A stretch of DNA of 64,000 nt from Tessaracoccus rhinocerotis (GTDB lineage: Bacteria; Actinomycetota; Actinomycetes; Propionibacteriales; Propionibacteriaceae), in NCBI RefSeq assembly GCF_007197885.1, contig NZ_VKKG01000002.1, forward strand, positions 558,001-622,000, in the 5' to 3' direction. A program made the translations under genes and the position numbers. This document shows, piece by piece, positions 8,024-61,991 of this stretch; within the stretch, counting starts at the first letter, position 1, and every line of letters starts with the position of its first letter. The notes below the pieces were generated by a model. The model was not told where the DNA came from. It worked only from the letters and a program-made list of their open reading frames with translations, and searched no databases.

Positions 8024-8239
8024 TCCGGCGCGCTCACGCTAGGCTGAGAGCGCACGACCACAACTGAATACCGAACCGTACCCAGTGCTGTCCGCCGCGC
8101 GGTCCCATCTGGTCCTCGGTAGTGGTCTTCGGGTGCGATTCGATCGCCCCCGCGGGCCTCGATCGAAGGCCGGTGGACGTGACGGTCCCCACCCTGCGCG
8201 GGTGGGCGGCAGCGCACACCACCCGAAAGGAGCCTGTCC

Positions 8240-10958: not shown

Positions 10959-12109
10959 GACGTCCCCCGGGGCGACCCGCCGCGCAGCTCGACCAGAGCG
11001 GCTGCGAGTCCGGGGGAGATGCTCTCGACGTCGGCAAGCACCGCTGCCACGGCCGCGGAGCCGCCGCCCTGCGCAGCCTGTTGTTCCAGTCCGAGTGCGA
11101 TTCCCGGCAGCAGCGGACGCGGATCGTCCCACTGGTTGCACAGCCGCAGCGCACCGAGGAAGCGTTCGCCGGGCTGGAGCTTGCGCTCGGGGTCGCGTCC
11201 CACCCTTTCCACCGTGTCGTGGAGGGCGGTGTTCGCGAATCTCGCCAGAAGGTCCTCCGCGTGGGCGATCAGTTCCTCCTGGGGCTGGCCGTACTTGCGG
11301 GCCAGTGCGCGCGCGGGGGCGTGCATCGCGGCCCGGACCTGCTCCAGGATGTCGGGGTCTGAGATCGCCGGAGCGATCTCGCAATGGCCCGCGCGGGCAC
11401 CGAGGTACGCGGTGGCGCAGTGGCCCTGGTTGTGGACGTAGAGCTTCCGTTCGGTGAAGAACGCGAAGTCGAGCTCCGGGTTCCCGAGCAGTTCCGGGAC
11501 GTCGGGCACGGGCGCGCGGCAGGCGGCGACGTCGAACGGGAGCTTGCGGTAGGGCTCGACGGCCACCAGGGCAGGGTGCTCCCGGCGCTGCGACTCGGTG
11601 GGCACCGGGATCATGCGGCCGATGGAGCACTCCACCACGCCCACGTTGGCCAGCACGGTTGCCGCCTCTGCTCCCAGGGTACCGAGCTCCGTGGAGAGCA
11701 GGCCACGCACGAGCTTGGCGCCCTCGTGCAGGTTCTCCGCGAGGTAGACGTCCATGGGTCCGCCGTCGACGGCGGCGCGGTCCGCGAGGCCCGCCGCGAG
11801 CGCCGGGGCCACCCTGGGCAGGTTCCGTGCCCCGACGCTGGTGAACACGGCGTCGGCCTCGGAGACGGCGCGTCGCACCGCCGCCTGGTCCTGGGCGGGG
11901 ACTGCCGTGCAGCCGGTCACGTACTTGCGCACGGTGCCCGCGCTGGCGACGGTGTCGTGGGGGTAGGAGCCGGACCTCAGGACGGCCACGAGCTCGGGGT
12001 CGGCGTCGACGAACGTGACTCGCCACCCGGCGTCGGAGAACAGCTCGCCGATGAAGCCCCGGCCCACGGCGCCGGCGCCGAAGACGACGACGTTGTTCCC
12101 GCGGCTCAT
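10949..12109 (-). CDS. mtlD: Mannitol-1-phosphate 5-dehydrogenase family protein
   Basis: NAD-dependent polyol-phosphate dehydrogenase, expected to interconvert mannitol-1-phosphate and fructose-6-phosphate. It has 386 residues, the normal MtlD length. An N-terminal Rossmann motif, GAGAVGRGFIGELF (residues ~9-22), is followed by the ENLHEGAKL segment. The catalytic-lysine region KLYVHNQGHCATAYLG heads the C-terminal helical domain. The start ATG overlaps the stop of manA (ATGA), so it is the last gene of the pfkB-lacI-manA-mtlD unit. Both enzymes act around fructose-6-phosphate, which supports the assignment. A related phosphorylated polyol substrate cannot be excluded. Confidence 0.82.
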   Translation of the reverse strand: MSRGNNVVVFGAGAVGRGFIGELFSDAGWRVTFVDADPELVAVLRSGSYPHDTVASAGTVRKYVTGCTAVPAQDQAAVRRAVSEADAVFTSVGARNLPRVAPALAAGLADRAAVDGGPMDVYLAENLHEGAKLVRGLLSTELGTLGAEAATVLANVGVVECSIGRMIPVPTESQRREHPALVAVEPYRKLPFDVAACRAPVPDVPELLGNPELDFAFFTERKLYVHNQGHCATAYLGARAGHCEIAPAISDPDILEQVRAAMHAPARALARKYGQPQEELIAHAEDLLARFANTALHDTVERVGRDPERKLQPGERFLGALRLCNQWDDPRPLLPGIALGLEQQAAQGGGSAAVAAVLADVESISPGLAAALVELRGGSPRGTSQR

Positions 12110-13104
12110 GCCGCGTCCGGGGCGGAGGGTGCGGGGGGCCGGCACCAAGCTGCCCGCAGGTCCCCGGTGAGGGTGGCTGGGGTGGCGTGCGGGACGACCA
12201 GCGTGTCCCCGCGACCCACCTCGATGGAGCCGGTTGCCCAGTCCAGCGTCCCGCCGCCCTCCAGCACCACCACGACGGCGAAGCCCTGCTCGAGGGCCCC
12301 GGCGCTGACCCAGTGCGCCCGGAAGTACGGTGCGGCAGCCTCCGGCATCGCCGAGCCGGCGCCACCCCGCACGACGAGGTCCTCGATCTCCTCGGTCGTG
12401 CGGACCCGCAGGTCGGTGGCCTGCAGCGCCAGGTCGAAGCCCAGACCCAGCTCCTTCGGAGCCTCCGGGTCCAGGGCGAAGCCCTCCCACTCGAGCAGGA
12501 TCGACAGGTCCTCCGGCTCCTGCACCTCGACGAGCAGGATGCCCTCGCCGATGGCGTGGGGGAAGCCGGACGGGACGAACACGGCGTCACCGGCCTCCAC
12601 GGCGACGGGGTGCAGGGCGTCGAGCAGGGTCTCGGTGTCCTGCTCCGCGACCAGCCGGGCCAGTTCCTCGGGGGACACCTCCCTGCGGAGCCCGAGGTGG
12701 ACCGTTCCCGGGCGCAGCACCAGCCAGGCCTCGGTCTTGCCGTGGGCGCGGCCGAGATGCCGGCCTGCGAACGCGCCGTCGGGGTGGATGTGGACGGGCA
12801 GGCGCTGCCCCGCGTCGAGCAGCTTGGTGAGAAGCTTCGTGTCGGAGCCCCACCTTTGGGCGTGCTCGGCCCCGAGCCAGCCGACGGGGTCCGTCGCGAC
12901 GGCGTCGCGGAGGTACTGGCCGGATCCGAGGCGCGTCAGCCCCAGGCTCTGTTCACCGAACAGGCACGTGGTGGAGGCGACCCAGTCCTCCGGGGTGTTG
13001 CCGCCGTCATGGGACTCGCCCCGGAACTCTGCGATGCGTGCCCCACCCGTGTAGAAGCGGTCGGCCGGCTGGTTGGCGGGCAGGATGATGGGTTCCAGCG
13101 TCAT
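12106..13104 (-). CDS. manA: Class I mannose-6-phosphate isomerase
   Basis: Interconverts mannose-6-phosphate and fructose-6-phosphate. It has 332 residues, the shorter type-I form. The zinc-binding cupin signature is visible as LPVHIHPDGAF (first His ligands) followed by GKTEAWLVL (Glu ligand) and VPSGFPHAIGEGILLVEVQEPEDLS. The ATG has GAGGAG 4 bases upstream and starts 8 bases after the LacI stop; its stop overlaps mtlD. Together with the PfkB kinase and MtlD it channels mannose, fructose or mannitol into glycolysis. Confidence 0.9.
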   Translation of the reverse strand: MTLEPIILPANQPADRFYTGGARIAEFRGESHDGGNTPEDWVASTTCLFGEQSLGLTRLGSGQYLRDAVATDPVGWLGAEHAQRWGSDTKLLTKLLDAGQRLPVHIHPDGAFAGRHLGRAHGKTEAWLVLRPGTVHLGLRREVSPEELARLVAEQDTETLLDALHPVAVEAGDAVFVPSGFPHAIGEGILLVEVQEPEDLSILLEWEGFALDPEAPKELGLGFDLALQATDLRVRTTEEIEDLVVRGGAGSAMPEAAAPYFRAHWVSAGALEQGFAVVVVLEGGGTLDWATGSIEVGRGDTLVVPHATPATLTGDLRAAWCRPPAPSAPDAA

Positions 13105-50691: not shown

Positions 50692-52211
50692 CCGCCTCCT
50701 CGTGGTCGGTCGCGCTCTCCGGCATCGAGGGCGCCATGGTGGAGGTCGAGGCCGCGCTCGGGGGTGGTCTGCCCCGCGTGAAGGTGGTGGGTCTGCCCGA
50801 CGCCTCGCTGAACGAGGCCAAGGAACGTGTGAAGGCCGCCGTGGTCGCCTCGGGGTACGACTTCCCGCAGGTCCTGCTGACCATCAACCTGTCCCCGGCA
50901 GGGCTGCCCAAGCACGGCACCCACTTCGACCTTGCCATCGCCGCCGCCACCCTGGCCTGCACGGCCAAGCTCCCCGCGGAGCGGGTGCGTCGCTTCGTCT
51001 ACCTCGGGGAGCTCTCGTTGAACGGGAAGGTGAGGCGGGTGCGCGGCATCCTGCCCGCGCTGCTCGCCGCATCCCGTGCCGGCTTCGAGAAGGCCGTGGT
51101 CCCCGCCGGTCAGGTGGGGGAGGCCCACCTGGTCCCGGGCCTGGAGATCTGGCCCGTCTCCCACCTGGGGGACCTGCAGGACGTCGTGGCGGGCCGGCCA
51201 CCGAGGACGGACCTGGCGGAGGAGGCCGCGGACGGCCGCCCCCAGGACCGCGGACTCGACCTGTCCGACGTCCACGGGCACGCGGACGGCCGCTGGGTGA
51301 TGGAGGTGGCCGCAGCGGGGCGCCACCACGTCTACCTGCACGGCTCGCCCGGGGTGGGCAAGACGATGCTCGCGGAGCGGCTGCCCGGCATCCTGCCGGA
51401 ACTGTCGCCGCAGGAGGCGGTGGAGGTCTCCGCGATCCACTCGCTGGCGGGCGTGGACATCGGATCGCGGCTGCTCACCCGCGCGCCCTACGCGGACCCG
51501 CACCACAACTGCACCATGGCCAGCCTCATCGGCGGCGGCAGGGAGATCCGGCCTGGATCCATCTCCCTCGCCCACCGGGGCGTGCTCTTCCTGGACGAGG
51601 CCCCGGAGTTCGGGGCCAAGCTCCTGGACTCTCTCCGCACCCCGCTGGAGGGTGGAGAGGTGACCATCGCGCGGGCAAACCAGCAGGTCCGCTATCCGGC
51701 CCGGTTCCAGTTGGTTCTGGCCGCGAACCCGTGCTCGTGCGGCAACGCGGGCGTCGTGGGCCGGGAGTGCACCTGCCTGCCGATGCAGGTCCGGCGCTAC
51801 CAGGAGCGGCTCTCGGGGCCCATCCTGGACCGGATCGACATCCGGCACCAGATGCTCCCCCTCAAACGGGCGTTCCTCGGTGAGGCGGTGGAGACCCCCG
51901 AGTCCAGTTCCGCAGTGCTGCAGCGGGTGCTGGAGGCCCGGGCAAGGCAGCAGGCACGCCTGAGGGAGACGCCCTGGAGCACCAACGGTGAGGTTCCCGG
52001 TGCCCACCTGCGCAAGCACCTGCCCTTGCCCTCGGACCTCGGCCCGCTCGAGCGTGCCCTGGCCCGCGGGTCCCTCAGCCATCGCGGGCTGGACAAGGTC
52101 CTCCGGTTGGCATGGACCGTCGCCGACCTGACGGGCAGGGAAACGATCTCCCCGGCAAACCTGCGGGTGGCGATGCAGATGCGGCAGGGCGAAGCGCTGG
52201 AGGCGGCGTGA
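50688..52211 (+). CDS. comM: ComM/YifB-type Mg chelatase-like AAA+ ATPase
   Basis: A 507-residue AAA+ protein; ComM is a hexameric helicase promoting branch migration during natural transformation in other bacteria. The N-terminal Lon-protease-like domain (VEVEAALGGGLPRVKVVGLPDASLNEAKERVKAA to INLSPAGLPKHG) is followed by the AAA+ core with Walker A GSPGVGKTMLAERLP (near residue 219) and Walker B GVLFLDEAPEF (near 300). A Cys-rich insertion (NPCSCGNAGVVGRECTCLP) and a C-terminal Mg-chelatase helical domain close it. Overlaps yraN and dprA by 4 bases each, so yraN-comM-dprA is one unit. Confidence 0.94.
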   Translation: MTASSWSVALSGIEGAMVEVEAALGGGLPRVKVVGLPDASLNEAKERVKAAVVASGYDFPQVLLTINLSPAGLPKHGTHFDLAIAAATLACTAKLPAERVRRFVYLGELSLNGKVRRVRGILPALLAASRAGFEKAVVPAGQVGEAHLVPGLEIWPVSHLGDLQDVVAGRPPRTDLAEEAADGRPQDRGLDLSDVHGHADGRWVMEVAAAGRHHVYLHGSPGVGKTMLAERLPGILPELSPQEAVEVSAIHSLAGVDIGSRLLTRAPYADPHHNCTMASLIGGGREIRPGSISLAHRGVLFLDEAPEFGAKLLDSLRTPLEGGEVTIARANQQVRYPARFQLVLAANPCSCGNAGVVGRECTCLPMQVRRYQERLSGPILDRIDIRHQMLPLKRAFLGEAVETPESSSAVLQRVLEARARQQARLRETPWSTNGEVPGAHLRKHLPLPSDLGPLERALARGSLSHRGLDKVLRLAWTVADLTGRETISPANLRVAMQMRQGEALEAA

Positions 52212-53323
52212 GGCTCGACGAGCGAACCGCCCGGATGGCGCTGTGCGCGCTGCAGCCGATGGGAAACGTGGAGTTGTCGCGCCTCGTGGCCGACGAGGGC
52301 GCGGTCGCGCTCTGGCATGCCGTGCGCCGTATGGGGGAGGAGTCCCGGTGGGGCCGCAAGGCCGCCTCGATCGTCCCCGAGGAACTGGCTGCCTGCACCC
52401 GGGCCTGCGGTGCCCGGTTCCTCGTGCCCGGCGACGACGAGTGGCCGGCGGGGCTGGCGGACCTCGGCGTGGCCACGGCCACCGGCGATGGCGGTGGCCC
52501 GCTCGGGCTGTGGGTGCGGGGCACCCTGGACCTGGGCGAGGCGGGGTCCGGCGTCTCCCTGGTGGGTGCGAGGGCCGCCACGGGCTACGGACTGCACGTC
52601 GCGACGGAGTGGGCCGCCGACCTGGCGCTCGCAGACCGCCTCGTCATCTCGGGTCTGGCCTTCGGGGTCGACGCGGCGGCACATCGGGGAGCGCTGCAGG
52701 CTCGCCGTCCCACGCTGGCCGTCATGGCCAGCGGGGTGGACGTGCCCTATCCGGTGGCCAACACCACGCTCATGAACGCAATCGTGGACAAGGGGGCGGT
52801 GGTGTCCGAGGTGCCGCCCGGCACGCATCCCGTCAAGGCCAGTTTCCTGGCTCGCAACCGGCTGATCGCTGCGCTGGGTGCTGGGGTGGTGATCGTGGAG
52901 GCGGCGGCCCGCTCCGGTGCCAAGAACACCGTCTCGTGGGCCAACGACCTGGGCCGCGTGGTGATGGCGGTTCCCGGTCCGGTGACCTCGTCGATGTCCG
53001 CCACCCCGAACAGGCTGATCAGGGACACCGCGGCAGTGCTGGTGTCGTCGCCGGCAGAGGTACTCGCGCTGCTCGGCCCGCTGTCCCCACAGGACGAACT
53101 GCCCCTGCAGGGTGAGGACTCGCGCTTCGACAGGCTCGCGCCCGACCTGCGGCAACTCAGGGAGGCATTCAGGCCCCGGGAGGAGGTGGGCGTGGCCGAA
53201 CTCTCCTCCCGGACCGGCCTCGGGGTCGTCGACTGCCTGGCAGGGGCCGACGAACTGGCAGAGGCCGGCTGGTTGGAGGCCACCGGACACCAGACCTGGC
53301 GGTTGCCCGTCAGGCCTGGGTGA
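52208..53323 (+). CDS. dprA: DNA-processing protein DprA
   Basis: Loads RecA on incoming single-stranded DNA during natural transformation. It has 371 residues. N-terminal helical region, then the Rossmann-like DprA fold (about residues 110-310): SLVGARAATGYG, LVISGLAFGVDAAAHRGAL, VVSEVPPGTHPVKASFLARNRLIAALG and SGAKNTVSWA. A C-terminal winged-helix-like domain follows (VAELSSRTGLGVVDCLAGADEL). Its 3' end overlaps the convergent toroid-protein gene by 14 bases. Downstream genes usual in actinobacteria (xerC, rpsB, tsf) are replaced here by the cobalamin locus. Confidence 0.94.
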   Translation: MRLDERTARMALCALQPMGNVELSRLVADEGAVALWHAVRRMGEESRWGRKAASIVPEELAACTRACGARFLVPGDDEWPAGLADLGVATATGDGGGPLGLWVRGTLDLGEAGSGVSLVGARAATGYGLHVATEWAADLALADRLVISGLAFGVDAAAHRGALQARRPTLAVMASGVDVPYPVANTTLMNAIVDKGAVVSEVPPGTHPVKASFLARNRLIAALGAGVVIVEAAARSGAKNTVSWANDLGRVVMAVPGPVTSSMSATPNRLIRDTAAVLVSSPAEVLALLGPLSPQDELPLQGEDSRFDRLAPDLRQLREAFRPREEVGVAELSSRTGLGVVDCLAGADELAEAGWLEATGHQTWRLPVRPG

Positions 53324-54533
53324 ACCGCACCGTGTTGTTGAAGACCCAGCCCTCCTCCATGGCGTAGGTCCAAGTGCCGCCTGCGGTCTGGGTGCTGGAC
53401 ACGAACCGGGCGCGGATGTAGCTGCGGCACGAGCCGCCACCGGAGGAGACCGTCTCGCAATCCGTGCGCCACCGGCGGCCGTTGTACTCATGGGTGCCCT
53501 CAACGCTGTAGACGTCCCAGTGCACCAGGGCCCAGAGGGCCTGCGTGGTGGCCCGCAACCACTGGGTGCGGTTCTGGGCAGGTCCATCGTGCAAGGCCTC
53601 GGCCGTGTAGGCGACCGCGCCGTCGTCGGCGCCACCGTCGACCTGCAGGGACCGTACGTAGCCGGCCGCCCGCGAGACCGACATCGGCCGCATCCCCGCC
53701 AGGGCCCGCGCCGCCAAACCGGTGGTGTTGGTGTTGGCGACGTCCGTGGACGGGCTGCCGATCCAGCTGCCGTCGGCGGCCTGGTCCTTCGCGAGCCAGG
53801 AGATCGCCTTGTCGAGCTCAGAGGTGACGTCGATGCCCTCGACCCGGTCCGCCGCGCGCAGGGCATGGATCGCCATGGCCGTGACGTCCCGGTCCGCACT
53901 GGCCGCCGGGGAATCGCACACGGTGGTGGACACGCCCAACCGGAAGTCACCGGCCGGGCACTGCTGCTGGAGCAGCGCCCGGACTGCGGGGCGGGGGTCC
54001 GTCCGGGTTCGCAGCAGGCCGAGGACGACGTACGCCTGGCCGAACGTGTTGGACGGCACCGTGGCGGCAGGTGACCGTCGCCTGCCCAGCATCCCGTCGA
54101 CCAACTCGTCGCGGACCGCGGTCTCGAGGTCGACCCCGCCGAAGTCCCTCGTATCGGTGCCCGTCGCCTGTGCGATGACGAGCAGCTTCGCGAGGGCACC
54201 GCCGTCGGTGACCGTCACCTCACCGGCCCCCAGATGGCCGTACTCCCGCGCCGCGACGGCTGCCTCGAGCCGCTTGACGAACGGCGCCAACTGCTGCTTC
54301 GTGGCGCCGGCGGTCGCCAGCCCCAGCACCGCGTCGGAGGTGAGAGCCCAGTCCACGGTTCCGTCGAACTTGGGGAGCGCGCCGTTGTCGGCCTGCTCCA
54401 TCAACCAGCCCGCCGCCCTGTCGACCGGCGTGACGGGGCTGCTGTCCGCCTCAGCCGCTGCCGGCAACAGCCCCAGCAGCAGGGCGGAGACTGACACCAT
54501 GGCCAGGGCGATGCGGGATGGTCGACGTCGCAC
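53310..54533 (-). CDS. Secreted alpha/alpha-toroid protein, intrinsic-factor-like alpha domain
   Basis: A 407-residue exported protein. Signal peptide 1-29 (MRRRPSRIALAMVSVSALLLGLLPAAAEA). Residues ~36-345 are repeated helical pairs with recurrent motifs (TSDAVLGLATAG, GQAYVVLGLL, ADRDVTAMAIHALRAA, NTTGLAARALAG, TQALWALVHW), as in prenyltransferase-like alpha/alpha barrels, the fold of the alpha domain of mammalian intrinsic factor. One Cys pair lies around QQQCPAGDFRLG. Residues ~350-407 form a Cys-containing module (GRRWRTDCE...GSCRSYIRA...WVFNNTVRF) shared with the neighbour. Second gene behind the cobalamin riboswitch at 56558-56639; no DUF4430 domain. Probable role: binding B12 at the surface, inferred from fold and regulation. 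Confidence 0.75.
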   Translation of the reverse strand: MRRRPSRIALAMVSVSALLLGLLPAAAEADSSPVTPVDRAAGWLMEQADNGALPKFDGTVDWALTSDAVLGLATAGATKQQLAPFVKRLEAAVAAREYGHLGAGEVTVTDGGALAKLLVIAQATGTDTRDFGGVDLETAVRDELVDGMLGRRRSPAATVPSNTFGQAYVVLGLLRTRTDPRPAVRALLQQQCPAGDFRLGVSTTVCDSPAASADRDVTAMAIHALRAADRVEGIDVTSELDKAISWLAKDQAADGSWIGSPSTDVANTNTTGLAARALAGMRPMSVSRAAGYVRSLQVDGGADDGAVAYTAEALHDGPAQNRTQWLRATTQALWALVHWDVYSVEGTHEYNGRRWRTDCETVSSGGGSCRSYIRARFVSSTQTAGGTWTYAMEEGWVFNNTVRFTQA

Positions 54534-54566
54534 GGGGTTCCTCTCGGTGGTGGCTCGGCCAGGTCC

Positions 54567-56483
54567 TCAGCGACTGAAGCGGACCATGTTGTTGAAGACC
54601 TCAAGGGTCTCGTAGTGGTATGCGTCACCGGTTCGCTGGACGACCCGTGCTTGCACGTAGCTGCGGCACCCGTTCTTGCCGGTCACAGCAGTATCGCACT
54701 CCGTGCGCCACTGCCGACCGTCCTCGGCCGTCCAACGGCCGCTGTGGCCCAGGGGGTTGTCCGCCCAGGAGGATCGGGGGGAGGCGACGTAGGTGAGGTT
54801 GTTGAACTGCCAGCCGTTGACCGGCACGAACACCCCGGACGCCTCGTGCACCGTCGTGCCCCAGATGTAGGTCCAGCACCGGGTGGTGAGCGAGTAGGGC
54901 TCGCACACCGTCATCCAGTTGCGCCCGCCCGAGGTGTGGAAACCCGGGGTCTCGTACAGGTCGCGGCCCCCGGTGGCGGGAGCGGTGCTCGTGACGGTTG
55001 CAGTTGCAGTTGCCGTCGCGGTGGCCGTGACGGTCACTGTCGGTGCAGGAGACGGTGTTTCGCTCTGGTCGGGTTCGGGTGCCTGCTGCGGGGCGAGAGC
55101 GAACAGCGCTTGGGAGGTCGCCCGCTGCCACTGGGAGCGGGAGCCGGTGATGGCGCCGTCCCCGAAGGCGGCCGCGTCGTAGGCGACCGCGCCGTCGTCG
55201 GCTCCGCCGGAGACCTGCAGGGACGCGGTCCACGCCGCGGCCTTCCTGACCGAGTCGGTCGCGAGCCCGGACAAGGCGTGGGCGACGAGTCCGGTGCTGT
55301 TCGTGTTGGGGCTGGCGGTCCAGCGGCTGCCGATCCAGGACCCGTCCGCTTTCTGGTCGGAGACCAGCCACTCGACTCCGGAGTCCAGCGCCGCGGCCAC
55401 CTCAAGCCCGCTCGCGGCCGCAGCGCGCAGCCCGAGCACGGCCAGCGCGCTCGCGTCCCGGTCGGCGTTGCCCGCGTCGGTGGTGCAGGGCGTGGCAGCC
55501 GGGAACAGCCGGAAGTCCCCGCTCGGGCACTGCTGGGCCACCAGGAAGTCAGCGGCCTCCGTCACGGGCCGGTCGAGCCCGGCGAGGGCCATGACCGCGT
55601 AGGCCTGCCCGAAGGTGTTGGCACCCTTCAACTGACCGTCGACCAGTTCCGACTCGAGTGCGGAGACGAGGTCGCGACCGCCGTAGGAGCTGGGATCGGC
55701 TCCCGTGAGGGAGGCGATCAGGGTGAGCTTGGCGACGCCACCAGCGTCGACGTAGGTGTTCTCGCCGTCCACCAGGAAGCCGTAGCTGCCGTCCCTGACG
55801 GCGCCCTGCACAGCCTCGAGCACGGGCGCCAACTGCTCCTCGCCTGCGCCAGCGGCCACCAGGCCGAGGACTGCGTCGGTGGTCAGGCCCCAGTCGGGGT
55901 TGCCGAGGAAGTTGGGCAGGGCACCATCGGTGGTCTCGCCCAGCAGCCAGGCCGTGGCCCGCTCGGCAGGGGTGGCCGGGTCCGCGCCAGGGCCGATCGG
56001 CCCGGGGCCGGTGGCTGCCAGCGGATCCAGCGCCGGAGGCACCGCGTCCTCGGCGTAGCTCTCCTGGAACACCCAGGCCTCGACGGAACCCGCCTGCGGC
56101 CTGCTGTCAGCCATGCCGAACTCGGAGAAGGCCCATTCCCCGGGGGAACCGTCCTGCGGTGCGAGCGTCCAGTAGGACCACCAGTACATCGAACCGGCGG
56201 CGTCGGAGGCGTCGGGCCTGCCGGCCAGGTGGGTGATGAAGCCGGCGTTGTCGGTGATCTCCACGCCGGCCGAGACGAGGGCCTCCTCGCCGGTGCCGAA
56301 GTCGACGGCGCAGCCGGAGTCCGCGACCTCGCCGCGGATCTCGACGTGAACCCACACCAGGCCGAGGTCGATGCACTCAGTGGCGGTGTTCGGCGTGGCG
56401 GCGCGGGCGCCCACGGGCGCCAGGGCCAACAGGAGGAGGAGTGAGAGGAATGGAATGAGGCGGTGCCTCAGCAGGGTTGCCAA
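54567..56483 (-). CDS. Secreted DUF4430 plus alpha/alpha-toroid protein, transcobalamin-like
   Basis: A 638-residue exported protein built from the two folds of mammalian B12 carriers. Signal peptide 1-28; DUF4430 (transcobalamin C-terminal-like) domain at ~36-145, with WWSYWTLAPQDG at 101-112. Toroid domain at ~172-465 with the same repeats as its neighbour (TTDAVLGLVAAG, FGQAYAVMALAG, DRDASALAVLGLRAA, NTNSTGLVAHALSG). A Thr/Val/Ala linker (~483-504) leads to two copies of a Cys-containing module (518-565 and 588-638). In intrinsic factor the toroid comes first; here the order is reversed. TTG start with AAGGA 7 bases upstream and a cobalamin riboswitch ahead. Probable surface B12-binding protein. 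Confidence 0.78.
   Translation of the reverse strand: MATLLRHRLIPFLSLLLLLALAPVGARAATPNTATECIDLGLVWVHVEIRGEVADSGCAVDFGTGEEALVSAGVEITDNAGFITHLAGRPDASDAAGSMYWWSYWTLAPQDGSPGEWAFSEFGMADSRPQAGSVEAWVFQESYAEDAVPPALDPLAATGPGPIGPGADPATPAERATAWLLGETTDGALPNFLGNPDWGLTTDAVLGLVAAGAGEEQLAPVLEAVQGAVRDGSYGFLVDGENTYVDAGGVAKLTLIASLTGADPSSYGGRDLVSALESELVDGQLKGANTFGQAYAVMALAGLDRPVTEAADFLVAQQCPSGDFRLFPAATPCTTDAGNADRDASALAVLGLRAAAASGLEVAAALDSGVEWLVSDQKADGSWIGSRWTASPNTNSTGLVAHALSGLATDSVRKAAAWTASLQVSGGADDGAVAYDAAAFGDGAITGSRSQWQRATSQALFALAPQQAPEPDQSETPSPAPTVTVTATATATATATVTSTAPATGGRDLYETPGFHTSGGRNWMTVCEPYSLTTRCWTYIWGTTVHEASGVFVPVNGWQFNNLTYVASPRSSWADNPLGHSGRWTAEDGRQWRTECDTAVTGKNGCRSYVQARVVQRTGDAYHYETLEVFNNMVRFSR
54975..55045 (-). 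repeat. Thr-Ala/Val-coding linker repeat
   Basis: Repeated ACNGCN/ACNGTN codons encode alternating Thr-Ala and Thr-Val over about 22 residues, a flexible linker between the toroid and the C-terminal modules. The DNA is a near-tandem hexanucleotide repeat. Confidence 0.6.
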
Positions 56484-56557
56484 CGAACGGTCCTTCCGCG
56501 TTTGGCTCGCGTCGCCGTTCAGGCGGGGTTCCGCAGATCGCGACGGAGCATCCAGTC

Positions 56558-56639
56558 GCAGGCTTTGGTCCGACTCCCCGTCCTGGGACGAGTTACGGTT
56601 GCGCGTCAGTTCCGGGATCTCACCGGATTCTCTGCCTGC
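56558..56639 (-). ncRNA. Cobalamin riboswitch, copy 1
   Basis: Read on the minus strand the RNA has GAATCCGGTGAGATCC, then GGAACTGACGCGCAACCGTAA, a hairpin CGTCCCAGGACGGG and the B12-box-like AGTCGGACC (56575-56567). The ends pair as GCAGGC (56639-56634) with GCCTGC (56563-56558). These are the conserved blocks of the cobalamin aptamer, in a compact form. It lies 74 bases before the TTG start of the 638-residue toroid protein. It should lower expression of the two toroid genes when B12 is plentiful. Confidence 0.88.
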
Positions 56640-56647
56640 TGCGGATC

Positions 56648-56653
56648 AACCTA
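56648..56653 (-). promoter_or_regulatory. -10 box ahead of riboswitch copy 1
   Basis: TAGGTT on the minus strand would start transcription about 7 bases downstream, at the edge of the aptamer. It implies the toroid genes form their own unit separate from the ECF genes. Confidence 0.45.
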
Positions 56654-56675
56654 GCACCACCGCAACCAAAGGCCC

Positions 56676-57545
56676 TCAGCAGGGGTCGGCAATGACACGC
56701 GCCATTCCCGAAGCGCGCCTCAGGACGCCCAGGACGGGCCTGCCGAGCAGCAGGAGGGCAACGGTCGTGGTGATGGCCCGGCCGGTGTCCCAGCCGGCGG
56801 TGGAGGTGACCAGGGTGAACCATCCGAAACGCACCAGGTTGTCGCCCGGGGGTGCCCCGGGGACGTAGTCCAGGCTCCCGGACCCGCCCGGGTACCCGTC
56901 GATGCTGATCCCACTGATGAACGGCCAGAACCACAGGTTCATCAGGGCCCCGAACAGGTACGCGGCCACGATGCCGTACCCGATCAGCACCAGGAGCTCG
57001 GCCCGGCCGCCGAGCTTGCGGGGGAGGAGCCCGGCACCCAGGCCGACCCAGGCCGCGCACAGCATCTGGGACGGCAGCCAGGGGCCGACGCCGGCGGTCA
57101 GGAGGGCGGAGGCGAACATGGAGGTGAATCCCAGCAGGTACCCGAACCCCGGCCCGAATGCGCGTCCGGCCAGCACCAGCAGGAAGAAGATCGACTCAAC
57201 GCCCGCTGTCCCGGCGCCCAGGACCGGTCTGATGGCGGCGTTGATGGCGGAAAGCACCCCGAGCAGCGCCAGCGCCTTCGCGTCCAGACCGCCGTCGCTG
57301 ATCTGCGCGATCACCAGCATCAGCACCACGGGCAGCAGGAACGCGAACACGTAGGGCGCGTCGTCGGCGTGCTGCGGGGCGACGTCCACCGCAGGCATCA
57401 GCAGCGGCCACGCGATCGTGAACAGCCCGATCACCGAACTGACGATGATGATGCTCCACGAGCGCCAGCCCAGCTGGACGCCGACGACCGGTGCCGCAAC
57501 GTCCACCAAGGGGGAGGTGCGGTCGGTGTGCTCAGTGGAGGGCAT
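56676..57545 (-). CDS. ECF transporter S component, cobalamin-type by context
   Basis: Substrate-binding membrane subunit of an energy-coupling factor importer, 289 residues. It has six to seven hydrophobic helices (near 32-52, 65-85, 90-108, 115-150, 158-205 and 240-275), including AGRAFGPGFGYLLGFTSMFASALLTAGVGPWLPSQML. This is longer than many S components (about 200). Specificity cannot be read from sequence alone; the cobalamin riboswitch and DUF4430 partners indicate B12 (CbrT-like role). The ATG overlaps the end of the ATPase gene by 14 bases, so it belongs to that operon. Confidence 0.82.
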   Translation of the reverse strand: MPSTEHTDRTSPLVDVAAPVVGVQLGWRSWSIIIVSSVIGLFTIAWPLLMPAVDVAPQHADDAPYVFAFLLPVVLMLVIAQISDGGLDAKALALLGVLSAINAAIRPVLGAGTAGVESIFFLLVLAGRAFGPGFGYLLGFTSMFASALLTAGVGPWLPSQMLCAAWVGLGAGLLPRKLGGRAELLVLIGYGIVAAYLFGALMNLWFWPFISGISIDGYPGGSGSLDYVPGAPPGDNLVRFGWFTLVTSTAGWDTGRAITTTVALLLLGRPVLGVLRRASGMARVIADPC

Positions 57546-59100
57546 CGAGGAACTCCTCGACGGTGAGCAGGGGCACCGGGTTGGTGACCTTCGCCACCTG
57601 GGTGGCGAGCAGGGCGGATCCCGGCAGGACGTCGCGGGTCGGGCCGTCGGAGACCACCTCGCCCTCGGCCATGACCACCACCCGGTGACACGTGGTGGCC
57701 ACCAGCTCCACGTCGTGCGTGGCGACGACGATGCTGTGGCCCTGTTCGGCCAACTGGGTGAGGATCCCGTTCAGGGCCTGCTTGGCCGAGTAGTCCAGGC
57801 CGCGCGTCGGCTCGTCCAGCAGGATCACGCCCGGGCGCCGCGACAGCTCCGCAGCCAGCACGACTGCCAGCTTCTGGCCCTCCGAGAGGTCGCGCGGATG
57901 TGACTGGGGGTCGATCCCGGGGACCAGCTGCTGCAGCACCTCCAGCGTGCTGCCGGGGGCCAGCTCGGCCTCGGCGTCGGCATTCGCGCACTCCGCCGCG
58001 ACGGAGGCCAGGTACAGCAGGTCCGAGGCGGTCTGGGGCACCAACGCAACCTGTCCCGCCTCCGCGCCCCTGACGGTGCCCGCATCTCGTCGGCCGGCGC
58101 CGTGCAGGGCCCACAGCAGGGTCGACTTGCCCGAGCCGTTGCGGCCCATCAGGGCGGTCACCTCGCCGCGGCGGAGGGTCACGTCGACGCCGGCCACGGC
58201 CACCACCTGCGGGTAGCGCACCACGATGCGCTCGGCCGCGAGCGTTACGGGACCGGCCCCGGGCGGTGCCGGCAGCGTGGGTGGCTGCTCCACCCAACCA
58301 CGGCGCGCCTCGGCGGCGTGGCGCCTTCCCTCCCGGATCGTCAGGGGCAGCGGGTCCCATCGCTGTCGGACGCCGAGCTCGACCAGTGGGGGGCGGATCG
58401 GGGAGCCCGCCAGAACCTCGCGCGTGGGCCCGTGGGTGACACTCCCACCGGCGTCCACCCGCAGCACGCTGTCGGCGAACTCGATCACCCGCTCCATCCG
58501 GTGCTCGGCGATCACCACGGTGGTGCCGAGGTCGCGTACGAGTCGGGAGACGAGCGCCAGGACGTCCTCGGCCGCCACCGGGTCGAGTGCCGACGAGGGC
58601 TCGTCGAGGACGAGGATCCGGGGCGAGGAGGCCAGCACGCTCCCGATGGCCACGCGCTGCTGCTGCCCGCCCGAGAGGTTCCGCAGCGGGCGCCCGCGCA
58701 GGTCGGCTATGCCCAACAGGTCCAGCGTCTCCTCCACTCGGCGCCGCATCTCGGAGGGCGAGAAGCCCAGCTGCTCCATCGAATAGGCCAGCTCCTCCTC
58801 GACCACGTCGGTGACGAACCCGGCCAGCGGGTCCTGCCCGACGTAGCCCACCGTGGTGGCGAGCTCGCGCGGGAGGAGACTCGTGGTGTCGATCCCGTCC
58901 AGCAGGACCCGGCCGCTGCGCACCCCGCCGGTGAACTGTGGCACGAGGTTGTTGATGCACCCGAGGAGGGTCGACTTGCCGCTGCCGGTGGGTCCGATCA
59001 CCAGCGCCAGCTCCCCCTCGGGGATCTCGAGGTTGACGTCGCGCAGCCGCAGGGCGTCGCTGTTCGCGTACCGGAACGAGACCTGCTCAAGGCGAATCAT
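57532..59100 (-). CDS. ECF transporter ATPase, two fused ABC domains
   Basis: Energy-coupling subunit with both EcfA halves in one chain of 522 residues. Domain 1: Walker A GPTGSGKST (36-44), signature LSGGQQQRV (142-150), Walker B ILVLDEPSSALD. Domain 2: GRNGSGKST (319-327), signature LSEGQK (405-410), VILLDEPTRGLD. Both sites look intact, although the second signature has LSEGQ for LSGGQ. The start overlaps the EcfT stop by 4 bases (ATGA). Confidence 0.92.
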   Translation of the reverse strand: MIRLEQVSFRYANSDALRLRDVNLEIPEGELALVIGPTGSGKSTLLGCINNLVPQFTGGVRSGRVLLDGIDTTSLLPRELATTVGYVGQDPLAGFVTDVVEEELAYSMEQLGFSPSEMRRRVEETLDLLGIADLRGRPLRNLSGGQQQRVAIGSVLASSPRILVLDEPSSALDPVAAEDVLALVSRLVRDLGTTVVIAEHRMERVIEFADSVLRVDAGGSVTHGPTREVLAGSPIRPPLVELGVRQRWDPLPLTIREGRRHAAEARRGWVEQPPTLPAPPGAGPVTLAAERIVVRYPQVVAVAGVDVTLRRGEVTALMGRNGSGKSTLLWALHGAGRRDAGTVRGAEAGQVALVPQTASDLLYLASVAAECANADAEAELAPGSTLEVLQQLVPGIDPQSHPRDLSEGQKLAVVLAAELSRRPGVILLDEPTRGLDYSAKQALNGILTQLAEQGHSIVVATHDVELVATTCHRVVVMAEGEVVSDGPTRDVLPGSALLATQVAKVTNPVPLLTVEEFLDALH

Positions 59101-60251
59101 GAAAGTCCTTCCGCCGTGTTCAGGACACGGACGTCGGCGAGGCTGGGCGCCGGGGTCAGGAACGCGGGCAGCGCGGCGGCCAGGAGCCCCAGCAGCAGCC
59201 CGGTGGTGAGCTCCGGCCACGTGGGCGGGCTGATCGCCGGCACCAGGACGGCCGCCTCGGCGGAGCGCTGGGTGATGGTGACGGCCGCGACCATGGCCGA
59301 GCCGCAGAGGACGACGAGCCACTCGGCTCCCTGCCAGCGGATCGGACGGTAGGTGGACTTGTTCACGGTGCGGCCCGCGCGGCGCATGGCCAGCGCCACC
59401 AGCAGGCCACCGGCAAACAGCAGGCCCAGCGAGACCACGTTGAACCCGAGCAACGTCGGGCCCGGAGCGGTCCGGGAGAGGTGCAGGTACGCGCCGACGG
59501 ACACCACGACGAGTCCGGCCAGGCCGATCGAGGTGGTCCAGCGGCGCTCGTTTGTTGAAGCCGTCCCGTGCCGGCCGTACCCCCGCACGTCCATCGAGGC
59601 AGCCAGCCGAAGCGACCGTTCGAGGGCGTCGGACAGGACGGGGATGAGGATGGTCTCCACCACCTTGTGTCGCCGCCGACGGCCCCGGCCGGCGGGCGAG
59701 CGCCGCAGCTTCCGGGCCCTGTGCACGCGCAGGACCGACTCGCCCAGCTGCGGGAAGACACCGATGGCCACGACGAGGATGGTTCCCAGCTCGTACAGGG
59801 CTCCCGGCAGGGAGGCGAGCAGGCGCTTGGGGTTGGCCAGGGAGTTGGCCGCGCCCAGGCAGATGATCATGGTCGCGAGCCGGAGGCCGTCGTAGAGGCC
59901 CGCCAGCACGGCTTCCAGGGAGATCGGGCCCAGCAGGCGGATGCCCTGCACCCACCAGGGCAGCGGCACCTCGGGCAGTTCCAGCAGGACGGTGGGGCCG
60001 TCACCACCACCGAAGAGGACGCGGAAGGCCACCCGCACCACGACGATCGCTGCGCCGAGCACCAGGTAGACCATGAAGCCGCGGGCCCAGGGGTTGTCGC
60101 CCCGCCGTGCGAAGGTCACCAACGACGCCACTGCCACGATCGCCGCGAGTAGCAGCGGATTCGTGGTGCCGTTGGCCGCCACCGCCAGGGCGATCGCCCA
60201 CACCCACCACGCGAACGGGTGGATGGGACGTGGCAGGAAGTAGCGCCCCAT
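59097..60251 (-). CDS. ECF transporter transmembrane component EcfT
   Basis: Scaffold subunit linking ATPases to the S component, 384 residues, longer than the ~265 usual. Helices near 10-40, 50-75, 95-125 and, after the coupling region, four more in the C-terminal half. The coupling motif is LAASMDVRGYGR (ARG-type) near residue 230. The extra C-terminal ~120 residues contain further helices (VVLCGSAMVAAVTIT, LLLGLLAAALPAFL). Start ATG 60251 shares one base with the preceding stop (TGATG), better than the GTG at 60278. Confidence 0.9.
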   Translation of the reverse strand: MGRYFLPRPIHPFAWWVWAIALAVAANGTTNPLLLAAIVAVASLVTFARRGDNPWARGFMVYLVLGAAIVVVRVAFRVLFGGGDGPTVLLELPEVPLPWWVQGIRLLGPISLEAVLAGLYDGLRLATMIICLGAANSLANPKRLLASLPGALYELGTILVVAIGVFPQLGESVLRVHRARKLRRSPAGRGRRRRHKVVETILIPVLSDALERSLRLAASMDVRGYGRHGTASTNERRWTTSIGLAGLVVVSVGAYLHLSRTAPGPTLLGFNVVSLGLLFAGGLLVALAMRRAGRTVNKSTYRPIRWQGAEWLVVLCGSAMVAAVTITQRSAEAAVLVPAISPPTWPELTTGLLLGLLAAALPAFLTPAPSLADVRVLNTAEGLS

Positions 60252-61276
60252 CACACGAGGTTGCGGCGGCGCCACCACACGACGCCCCCAGCCGCGGCGA
60301 TGCCTGCCACGGCGCTGAGGCCGACGAACGTGCCCATCCCGGGGCCACCGCCGGAGGTCGTCGCGGCCACGGTGGGGGCTGACTCCGTCGCGCTGGGCTC
60401 CGGCGTCGTGGACTCCCGCACCTGATCACCCACGGTCTCGGGTGAGGGACTGACGGTTACTGAGGGGGTGGGCCCGGCCGAGGTGCTCGTGGAGCCGGCG
60501 GCTGTGGGCGTCGGCGCAGGCTTGGATGTGGGGGTGGGCGATGGCGTCCGGCGCGAGGTGGTGCCGCTCGCCGTCGGCTCGGGCTTCGTGGAGGCGCTGC
60601 TCGACGAGGCCGGCGGTGCGGGATTGGCCGTGGTCGGGGCGGGTGGGGCAACCGTGCTCGGGGCCGGAGCGGTCGTGGTCCCGGGCGGTGCGGGGGGAGC
60701 CGGGCTGGTCGGGCGCTGTGACGGTTCCGACTCGGGGATGGCAGCTGGCTTGACGCCCGGGGGCGGGTTGGAGCCCTCCGTGCGTCCGAGGGAGAACGAC
60801 CAGCCCTCGTACCCGCCGGGCTGCACGGACCGCGCCGCGCCGAGTTGGGAGAAGGTCCACTGGCCGCCCGGCTTGGCGTGCCAGTAGCTCCAGAACGCGC
60901 CGTCCGGCGGGGTGGCGATGCAGTTCTCCCGGTAGGCCTGCCCGCCGACGGTCAGGTCCTCGTCGGCGGCCGGCCTGTTGTTGATGCGGCACACGAAGGA
61001 GGCTCCGTCCTTGACGGTGCCGGCCGGGATGAACCCGGCTAGCTGCAGGGCTTGCAGCCCCGTGCCGCCGGTTGGGGGGAAGTCCTGGGCGCATCGCACC
61101 ACGACGCCGCCGCCGAGCTCCTGGTGGTCCACCACGACGGTGACGCCGGAGGCGTCGGTGCAGGGGCCGTCGTGGTGGGCGGCCTCGGCCGTCGGGGCGC
61201 CCAGCCAGGCACCGAGCATCGGCAACATGACCACCAGCAGCCCCGCCGACCAGCGACGTACGCCTTGAGCTCCCAT
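60251..61276 (-). CDS. Membrane-anchored DUF4430 surface protein
   Basis: A 341-residue protein: signal peptide 1-32, DUF4430-like domain ~43-165, then a Pro/Ser/Thr/Ala-rich stalk (~170-310) and one C-terminal transmembrane helix (314-335) with a basic end (RRRNLV). The domain has FWSYWHAKPGGQWTFSQLGA (128-147) and GGYEGWSFSLG, matching the other two DUF4430 proteins of the locus, plus two Cys pairs. It looks like a tethered B12 receptor on a stalk reaching through the wall, next to the ECF genes. Start ATG 61276, 8 bases after the preceding gene. Confidence 0.78.
   Translation of the reverse strand: MGAQGVRRWSAGLLVVMLPMLGAWLGAPTAEAAHHDGPCTDASGVTVVVDHQELGGGVVVRCAQDFPPTGGTGLQALQLAGFIPAGTVKDGASFVCRINNRPAADEDLTVGGQAYRENCIATPPDGAFWSYWHAKPGGQWTFSQLGAARSVQPGGYEGWSFSLGRTEGSNPPPGVKPAAIPESEPSQRPTSPAPPAPPGTTTAPAPSTVAPPAPTTANPAPPASSSSASTKPEPTASGTTSRRTPSPTPTSKPAPTPTAAGSTSTSAGPTPSVTVSPSPETVGDQVRESTTPEPSATESAPTVAATTSGGGPGMGTFVGLSAVAGIAAAGGVVWWRRRNLV
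60440..60765 (-). repeat. Pro/Ser/Thr-rich stalk-coding tract
   Basis: Low-complexity coding DNA for the wall-spanning stalk of the anchored DUF4430 protein; irregular PTPTSK, PAPT and STSA units rather than exact tandem repeats. Confidence 0.65.
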
Positions 61277-61284
61277 CCGTTGCC

Positions 61285-61818
61285 TCACACCCCAGTGCTG
61301 GGGAGCCCTGGAACCGAGGCGGTGGCACTCGGCGCGGGAGTCGGCGAGGCGGCGGGGAGTCCGACCGCCGGCAGGCTGGGCGCGGGTGCGTCCCCGCTGA
61401 AGCTGTGCGCGAGCCGCCAGCCCTCGACGGTGCCCCCGACGGGGCGGGAGTCCGCGGCGCCCACCATGTAGGACTCCCAGGTCAGGGCTCCGTCGTCGCC
61501 CGGGGTGGCGCTCCAGTAGCTCCACCAGTCCTCGGGGCCTGGGGTCGCGGGCTCGCCGCCGATGGTGCTGATGAATCCACCCGGGGCCTCGAACGAGACG
61601 CCGGCGCTGGTCAGGGCGTCGAACCCGGTGGCGAACTCGGTCGCGCAACCCCCGAACTCCCCGGAGTCGTCCTGCACCACCACCCAGACGTTGCCTGCCG
61701 CGAGGCAGTCACCGGCCTCGTCCGCGGCGGCGAAACCTGCCGGGACGGTGGCGGCGAGCAGTGCAATCGCTGCGGCGGCGATGCCGGTTCGGGAGCTGCG
61801 CTGGCGCAGTGAGGTCAT
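61285..61818 (-). CDS. Secreted DUF4430 protein ending in LPSTG
   Basis: A 177-residue exported protein: signal peptide 1-32, DUF4430 domain ~40-145 with WWSYWSATPGDDG at 98-110 and VEGWRLAHSF, then a short Pro/Ala/Ser tail that stops after GLPSTGV. The tail matches a sortase LPxTG motif but lacks the hydrophobic helix and basic residues that normally follow, so wall anchoring is doubtful. First gene after the riboswitch at 61900-61977; ATG with AAAGGG 6 bases before it. It may be a diffusible B12-binding partner of the tethered protein encoded next. Confidence 0.75.
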   Translation of the reverse strand: MTSLRQRSSRTGIAAAAIALLAATVPAGFAAADEAGDCLAAGNVWVVVQDDSGEFGGCATEFATGFDALTSAGVSFEAPGGFISTIGGEPATPGPEDWWSYWSATPGDDGALTWESYMVGAADSRPVGGTVEGWRLAHSFSGDAPAPSLPAVGLPAASPTPAPSATASVPGLPSTGV

Positions 61819-61899
61819 GTCCAACCCTTTCGAGACGAGCAGTCGTCGCCCGTTGGGCCGGATTGTCCGCTGACGCGACGGAACTGCAGTAGCTGGCGC

Positions 61900-61977
61900 C
61901 GAGCTTCGGTCCGACTTCCCGTTCAGGACGGGTCACGGTTGCGCGACAGCGCCGGATTCCCACCGGCTTCATGCTCG
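61900..61977 (-). ncRNA. Cobalamin riboswitch, copy 2
   Basis: On the minus strand: GAAGCCGGTGGGAATCCGG, then CGCTGTCGCGCAACCGTGA, hairpin CCCGTCCTGAACGGG and AGTCGGACC (61916-61908), closed by CGAGC (61977-61973) with GCTCG (61904-61900). Block order and the AGTCGGACC box are identical to copy 1, and GGTGGGAATCC is a very good match to the cobalamin aptamer core. It lies 82 bases before the first DUF4430 gene and should control the DUF4430-ECF operon in response to B12. Confidence 0.92.
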
Positions 61978-61985
61978 ACGCGGCC

Positions 61986-61991
61986 ACTCTA
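61986..61991 (-). promoter_or_regulatory. -10 box ahead of riboswitch copy 2
   Basis: TAGAGT on the minus strand places the transcription start within a few bases of the aptamer. TTGTCC occurs 19 bases further upstream as a possible -35 box. Confidence 0.5.

Follow-up and report, generated by a model that had tools for sequence, protein, structure and literature searches.

We analysed a window of 64,000 nucleotides from the 3.5-Mb genome of Tessaracoccus rhinocerotis (genome G000, contig C12). It holds a locus that an initial annotation had read as a vitamin B12 (cobalamin) scavenging system, in which intrinsic-factor-like surface proteins hand cobalamin to an energy-coupling factor (ECF) importer. 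The locus lies on the minus strand and comprises two riboswitch-headed units, in which all of the annotated parts were found in place. The first unit reads riboswitch 1, P0007, P0006, EcfT, a double EcfA and an S component, and the second reads riboswitch 2, P0002 and P0001. P0007 (61285..61824), which ends in LPSTGV, is a secreted-looking protein with a beta domain resembling DUF4430. P0006 (60251..61288), whose GTG start overlaps the stop codon of P0007, joins a beta domain of the same kind to a Pro/Thr-rich stalk and a C-terminal hydrophobic anchor. The signal-like N-termini of both proteins, as well as the start and the anchor of P0006, were assigned by eye. Our hidden Markov model (HMM) of the beta domain matched P0007 at E = 7e-18 and P0006 at E = 3e-28, both being seeds of the model. 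P0002 (54567..56483) consists of a beta domain (residues 35-141, E = 7e-21), a toroid (residues 170-464, E = 6e-79) and a lineage C-terminal domain (about residues 475-637), parts of the protein being seeds of both the beta and the toroid HMMs. P0001 (53310..54533) has a toroid (residues 35-336, E = 1e-80, also a model seed) that is 51% identical to that of P0002, followed by a C-terminal stretch that resembles the end of P0002 by eye. Both proteins look secreted, again as judged by eye.

The complete ECF importer claimed by the initial annotation was borne out by Pfam: EcfT (P0005, 59097..60251; PF02361 CbiQ, 39.4 bits for a cut-off of 25; ATG start at 60251 by eye), two EcfA ATPases in one double protein (P0004, 57532..59100; ABC_tran in two stretches, 164.5 bits) and an S component (P0003, 56676..57545; PF12822 ECF_trnsprt, 39.6 bits for a cut-off of 30.7) make up the full transporter set. 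ECF-CbrT of Lactobacillus delbrueckii is likewise of the ECF type, with EcfT, EcfA, EcfA' and an S component (PMC5997447). However, neither P0003 nor its profile (alignment A3) matched any PDB chain at E values up to 10, CbrT included. The assignment to a CbrT type was dropped for this reason, although a distant relation could escape such a search, and the substrate cannot be read from the S component. Comparative genomics reportedly lists B12-regulated ECF systems as cbrTUV.

Each unit starts with a candidate cobalamin aptamer. Riboswitch 1 (61896..61981), an adenosylcobalamin/cobalamin aptamer, passed the gathering score of RF01482 (51.5 against 50 bits), whereas riboswitch 2 (56551..56685), which overlaps the end of the S gene, stayed below that of RF00174 (26.4 against 31.5 bits, E = 0.0013); of the two aptamers claimed, only the first thus cleared the Rfam cut-off. 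Leader 2 has a canonical cobalamin core. Regular expression and covariance model together recovered counterparts of both leaders at matching places in L114 and L117, whose leader sequences belong to the covariance model itself, and there the counterparts of leader 2 lie between the S gene and the toroid gene. Among three sister species with a toroid gene after the S gene, two have such second-leader counterparts. Relying on its core, its E-value and the L114 and L117 counterparts rather than on the cut-off, we accepted leader 2 as putatively riboswitch-like. The -10 box proposed beside each leader (TAGAGT at 61986..61991 for riboswitch 1 and TAGGTT at 56648..56653 for riboswitch 2) is probable: both were read by eye, each recurs identically in the corresponding leader of L114, and the L117 leaders have boxes that look similar. 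The Rfam alignment of leader 2 begins upstream of its box, so that, if the box is real, only about 56643 downward would be transcribed.

Relatives of the P0003 S component are encoded in 82 of 148 genomes sampled from the class, that of the host included. Leaving the host aside, we surveyed 60 loci in 58 of the remaining 81 S-positive genomes, a non-random sample of best matches spread over families, with some short contigs omitted. A toroid was found in 43 of the loci and a beta domain in 55 (profile E ≤ 0.01), the common gene order being toroid, beta, T, A and S. Named carriers among the best 80 of 553 matches include Streptomyces, Nocardioides, Amycolatopsis and Micromonospora, and within the same set the closest named relative of P0003 comes from Tessaracoccus sp. 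OS52 (84% identity). A covariance model built from 17 leaders that had been found by regular expression, both window leaders included, matched on the same strand 71-550 nt upstream of the toroid, beta or T domain in 52 of the 60 loci. Seven of the 60 had supplied leaders to the model and match by construction, and three of the 52 matches are weak (19-21 bits; L079, L095 and L099). For the best 80 named loci, 70 had a match at E < 1e-3, position being disregarded. These matches support the proposed control by B12, more so with the relatives than from the window alone. The eight loci without a match are cut at contig ends (L067, L074, L082 and L083), fragmentary (L078) or of a fused-ECF variant (L103, L105 and L111). 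In this variant, frames of about 1000 residues join an S component to ECF parts, with a beta protein, no toroid and no match upstream, and L105 and L103 have a long MetH-like frame (by eye) with a B12-binding domain close by. A third cobalamin riboswitch in the genome of the host (G000:C12:135-361, L051; 94 bits) precedes frames that look like NrdI and NrdE by eye.

The window toroids matched the squalene-hopene-cyclase models of Pfam below cut-off. SQHop_cyclase_C was detected at E ≤ 1 in 18 of the 24 toroid rows of alignment A1. In alignment A5, whose 90 rows comprise 73 with a toroid and 17 with a beta domain only, models of the squalene-cyclase, prenyltransferase and macroglobulin kinds matched 60, 49 and 48 rows at the same threshold. 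PF01122, the animal cobalamin-binding family, matched 16 of the 90 A5 rows, weakly (best E = 0.0056), and 3 of the 24 A1 rows. An earlier alignment that mixed many beta-only with toroid-only rows was misaligned and was replaced by a smaller one. Against the PDB, the toroid profile found squalene-hopene cyclase at E = 8e-31; the 60 of its 77 matches that we examined were squalene cyclases, complement and macroglobulin domains, prenyltransferases and others, with no animal B12 carrier among them, and a direct sequence search with P0002 for intrinsic factor found nothing. DxDD is the catalytic motif of class II terpene cyclases. In all 24 toroid rows the column aligned to the third Asp holds another residue; the middle Asp persists in 22 of them and the first in 14. 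Judged from these profiles, the toroid is the same kind of domain as that of intrinsic factor, with no special closeness in sequence. The description of the surface proteins as intrinsic-factor-like holds for the kinds of domain that they share with it; the similarity of the toroid to PF01122 is weak, and the domain order is reversed in P0002.

No beta domain of the window reached the cut-off of PF14478 (DUF4430), the best one scoring 13.1 against 23.8 bits (E = 0.14). The genome of the host has no PF14478 match, and in A5 the model was detected at E ≤ 1 in 4 of the 90 rows (best 8e-4). Comparison of profiles with hhalign, however, gave a colinear alignment of 97 columns between the window-type beta family and genuine PF14478 domains, at a score of 43.3, whereas 60 column shuffles scored at most 18.4, and the beta HMM matched 5 of 25 PF14478 loci at E < 1e-3. 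This supports a divergent DUF4430/transcobalamin-C (SLBB)-like beta domain, with kinship visible profile to profile. The DUF4430 label of the initial annotation is thus qualified: the kinship covers the whole domain, in the same order, but lies below the Pfam cut-off. In animal TCN proteins, the C-terminal domain goes by the name DUF4430 (PMC4350170). Searched against the PDB, the beta profile matched two antibody chains only, which we took as chance, and the DUF4430 profile matched transcobalamin-1 at E = 1.5, too weak on its own. Just downstream of the riboswitch-led beta-ECF-toroid locus L060 there is also a genuine PF14478 domain (11436-12137). The nearest named models are NCBIfam SCO2321_fam for the toroids (62-63 bits for the window proteins, 63 for P0001; cut-off 300) and SCO2322_fam for the beta proteins (15-21 bits, 19 for P0007; cut-off 85). 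Their names point to Streptomyces coelicolor and state no function, yet an S component of this kind is present in the 82 sampled genomes mentioned above, and most of the 60 surveyed loci are riboswitch-led.

Outside the class, a survey of 296 genomes of the phylum found PF14478 in 51, and we read 20 regions around its matches. The complete set of five parts (PF14478, T, double A, S and toroid) was called in L242 and L243. Elsewhere the part not called was T (L244, L247 and L248), S (L251), both T and S (L246 and L252) or, in the other regions, the toroid. Our own covariance model gave a match at E < 1e-3 in 17 of them. With the models of Rfam itself at gathering score in eight of the 20, RF00174 scored 68-116 bits in seven and L241 gave none; the element immediately precedes the DUF4430 frame in L246, L247, L248 and L251, and in L242-L244 it stands about 3 kb upstream. 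In L234-L238, frames of 847-1919 residues with DUF4430 domains stand beside smaller DUF4430 proteins, and EcfA-like frames are present in L234-L237.

The toroid and beta domains also occur as fusions. Within the best 80 of 553 named loci, six chains are fused in the order beta-toroid and two in the order toroid-beta. L131 and L178 both come from metagenome assemblies. The L131 chain consists of a signal peptide, a toroid, a beta domain, a Pro/Thr stalk and an anchor behind a riboswitch-model match, and its domain order is that of the animal B12 carriers; L178, which has an anchor and a signal segment in its interior, resembles two genes run together. One case among the 20 PF14478 regions, L248, has a single frame of 567 residues with an S component and a toroid. 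Its toroid models pass the Pfam cut-offs and its S models remain below them (PF07155, 26.1 against 26.7 bits; PF12822, 22.1 against 30.7 bits), the window-type S HMM matching the frame at E = 6e-7.

Both domains are circularly permuted relative to the window order in many loci. In the permuted beta domain, the match to window-type columns 82-122 (E = 1e-12) precedes that to columns 16-76 (E = 8e-10), and the domain lacks internal repeats that could mimic the permutation. In the permuted toroid, columns 112-316 come first (E = 6.5e-35) and columns 1-110 second (E = 2e-19), while the best off-register match allowed by its internal repeats reaches E = 5e-14. DUF4430 has the unpermuted order, as seen from its colinearity in hhalign. 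Sorting 140 loci by domain order gave 70 with both domains unpermuted, 17 with both permuted and one mixed; the rest lack one domain, are partial or have doubled domains. Relatedness among the genomes weakens the 17-to-1 count. One genome (G144) carries a locus of each type (L060 and L075). On the S-component tree of 88 rows the permuted label needs seven changes, five of them forced by supported branches, so that a single origin of the permutation is not supported. Toroids doubled in a row (L119-L124, L127, L128 and L130) are possible natural intermediates of circular permutation. As a guess, the joint permutation of two neighbouring genes might stem from joint selection on a shared interface.

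Retention at the cell surface may take several forms. Simple hydropathy on unrefined frames gave a hydrophobic C-terminal segment in 51 of 135 toroid-bearing frames and in 123 of 159 beta-bearing frames, and LPxTG after the domain in 15 and 4 of them, respectively. P0007 (C-terminus at 61285-61305) and its counterparts in L114, L116 and L117 end in LP[SK]TG plus one residue, a sortase-like motif without a hydrophobic tail. The C-terminal domain of P0002 (54570-55061, about 160 residues) recurs in at least 18 further places of the same genome outside the locus (20 of 75 candidates being scored) and in many copies in genomes of the same genus, e.g. G003, G025, G026 and G032, and it matched no Pfam or NCBIfam model. 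It is possibly, in P0002 and P0001 alike, a genus-specific surface-retention domain.

CbiC was not found in the genome of the host, and CobS is present. Two B12-binding domains scored over the cut-off, in frames of 759 and 1214 residues whose sizes suggest a mutase and MetH, and a third falls just below it. Across the class, CbiC is missing from 60 of the 82 S-positive genomes against 23 of the 66 S-negative ones (Fisher p = 5e-6, a value that is too small since the genomes are related), and a B12-binding domain was detected in 145 of the 148 genomes (E ≤ 0.001).

We consider it likely that the locus is an uptake system for B12 (cobalamin/corrinoid) in a bacterium that probably lacks de novo synthesis of B12. 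At low intracellular B12, both riboswitches would permit expression of the two units. The toroid and beta (transcobalamin-C/SLBB-like) proteins would then be exported and held at the surface by an anchor, a stalk or the lineage C-terminal domain, and a toroid and a beta domain together would enclose the corrinoid, by analogy with transcobalamin. The corrinoid would be handed to the S component, and the EcfT-EcfA-EcfA module would drive the S-bound corrinoid across the membrane. We infer capture and transfer from the animal proteins, the conservation of the operon and the fusions. With about even confidence we extend this to a more specific picture, an ECF importer with extracellular capture in which separate toroid and beta chains close over the corrinoid as the two parts of intrinsic factor do, dock on the S component, are jointly permuted in some actinobacteria, and have in L131 a living bacterial counterpart of the animal carriers. 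Being permuted together, toroid and beta domain would evolve as one composite binding unit.

A system of this type was predicted by Burroughs, Balaji, Iyer and Aravind in 2007, who proposed B12 scavenging for transcobalamin-like domains, often fused to toroids, in CbiO/CbiQ operons of Gram-positive bacteria, as well as their lateral acquisition by animals (PMC1796856). The statement in the initial annotation that no system of this composition had been described is therefore too strong. In that paper, the SLBB clade in question has a secreted transcobalamin-C-type beta-grasp domain before or after an alpha/alpha toroid, occurs with CbiO/CbiQ in hosts usually without B12 synthesis, and is found mainly in low-GC Gram-positives, with planctomycetes and some euryarchaea (PMC1796856). 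The branch of the window differs in being actinobacterial, below the PF14478 cut-off, riboswitch-led, equipped with its own S component and partly permuted; the words 'riboswitch', 'Streptomyces', 'ECF' and 'permut' do not occur in the main text of the 2007 paper (PMC1796856). Animal transcobalamin, haptocorrin and intrinsic factor share both kinds of domain, their toroid and beta-grasp domain sandwiching B12 (PMC1796856), but they carry toroid then beta in one chain, whereas P0002 has beta then toroid and the other domains of the window are on separate chains. Among bacteria, BtuG and BtuH of Bacteroides are likewise B12-binding proteins that feed an importer, BtuG being surface-exposed (PMC6143338, PMC8941943), but they are different proteins of another envelope, and BtuG partners with BtuB rather than with an ECF importer (PMC6143338). 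In a limited search of the open-access literature we found no description of the actinobacterial operon and its S component, of the link to riboswitches, of the fusion of S component and toroid or of the permutations. We regard as new the divergent actinobacterial branch together with its riboswitch linkage, the one S-toroid fusion and the joint circular permutation. ECF systems are not known to have extracellular binding proteins, but the 2007 paper implies them for CbiO/CbiQ operons. If our reading is true, actinobacteria gain a route of B12 capture and import, the 2007 prediction extends to them, and the proposal that animal intrinsic factor and transcobalamin originated in bacteria becomes testable in laboratory strains.

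Several observations weigh against B12 uptake by capture and import. Besides the Rfam score of leader 2, the PF14478 scores of the beta domains, the empty PDB search with the S component and the eight surveyed loci lacking a riboswitch-model match, L116 has a toroid gene after the S gene but only the first leader, with no second-leader match, and the folding energies of the two window leaders are not more stable than those of shuffles (z = 0.28 and -0.02). Of the 140 loci, 14 have neither toroid nor beta domain and 22 have a beta domain without a toroid, some of these loci being cut at contig ends. L080 and L100 have a riboswitch, T, A and S and neither of the two domains, and the importer can therefore exist without capture proteins. 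CbiC is present in 22 S-positive genomes, and relatedness makes the Fisher test too optimistic.

An unlikely alternative is that the operon imports, in place of intact cobalamin, one of its precursors or fragments, such as cobinamide, cobyrinate diamide, dimethylbenzimidazole or its riboside. CobS is encoded in the host genome, so that the cell may carry out late steps of assembly or salvage. Cobinamide, too, is taken up by known B12 importers (PMC6593275, PMC5997447), and cbrUVT has been listed with 'cobyrinate diamide uptake' and cblTS for dimethylbenzimidazole uptake (PMC8123684). Large two-domain carriers of the transcobalamin kind would suit a corrinoid better than a small base; the data do not separate cobalamin from cobinamide or cobyrinate. 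Less probable still is that the surface proteins serve another role (adhesion, wall, or binding of cobalt or another ligand) and are under B12 control only because they are needed at B12 shortage. One of the reviewers of the 2007 paper cautioned that the clade may have diverse ligands (PMC1796856), riboswitch-led ECF operons such as L080 and L100 do without both domains, and the C-terminal domain of the window toroid proteins recurs in many other proteins of the genome, but the wide co-occurrence with P0003-type S components under cobalamin riboswitches and the S-toroid fusion of L248 argue against such a role. That the toroids are terpene-cyclase-like or prenyltransferase-like enzymes merely lying beside a B12 importer is very improbable, since, for all their closeness in sequence to squalene-hopene cyclase, the broken DxDD motif led us to reject a terpene cyclase, the window proteins look secreted, and toroids occur joined to beta domains and, in one case, to an S component.

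Two further features of the window were recorded. The end of P0001 (53310-53323) overlaps by 14 bases with the end of a convergent frame (52112-53323) that is DprA-like by eye, and an Actino-pnp RNA scoring 60.8 bits lies at 8108-8174.

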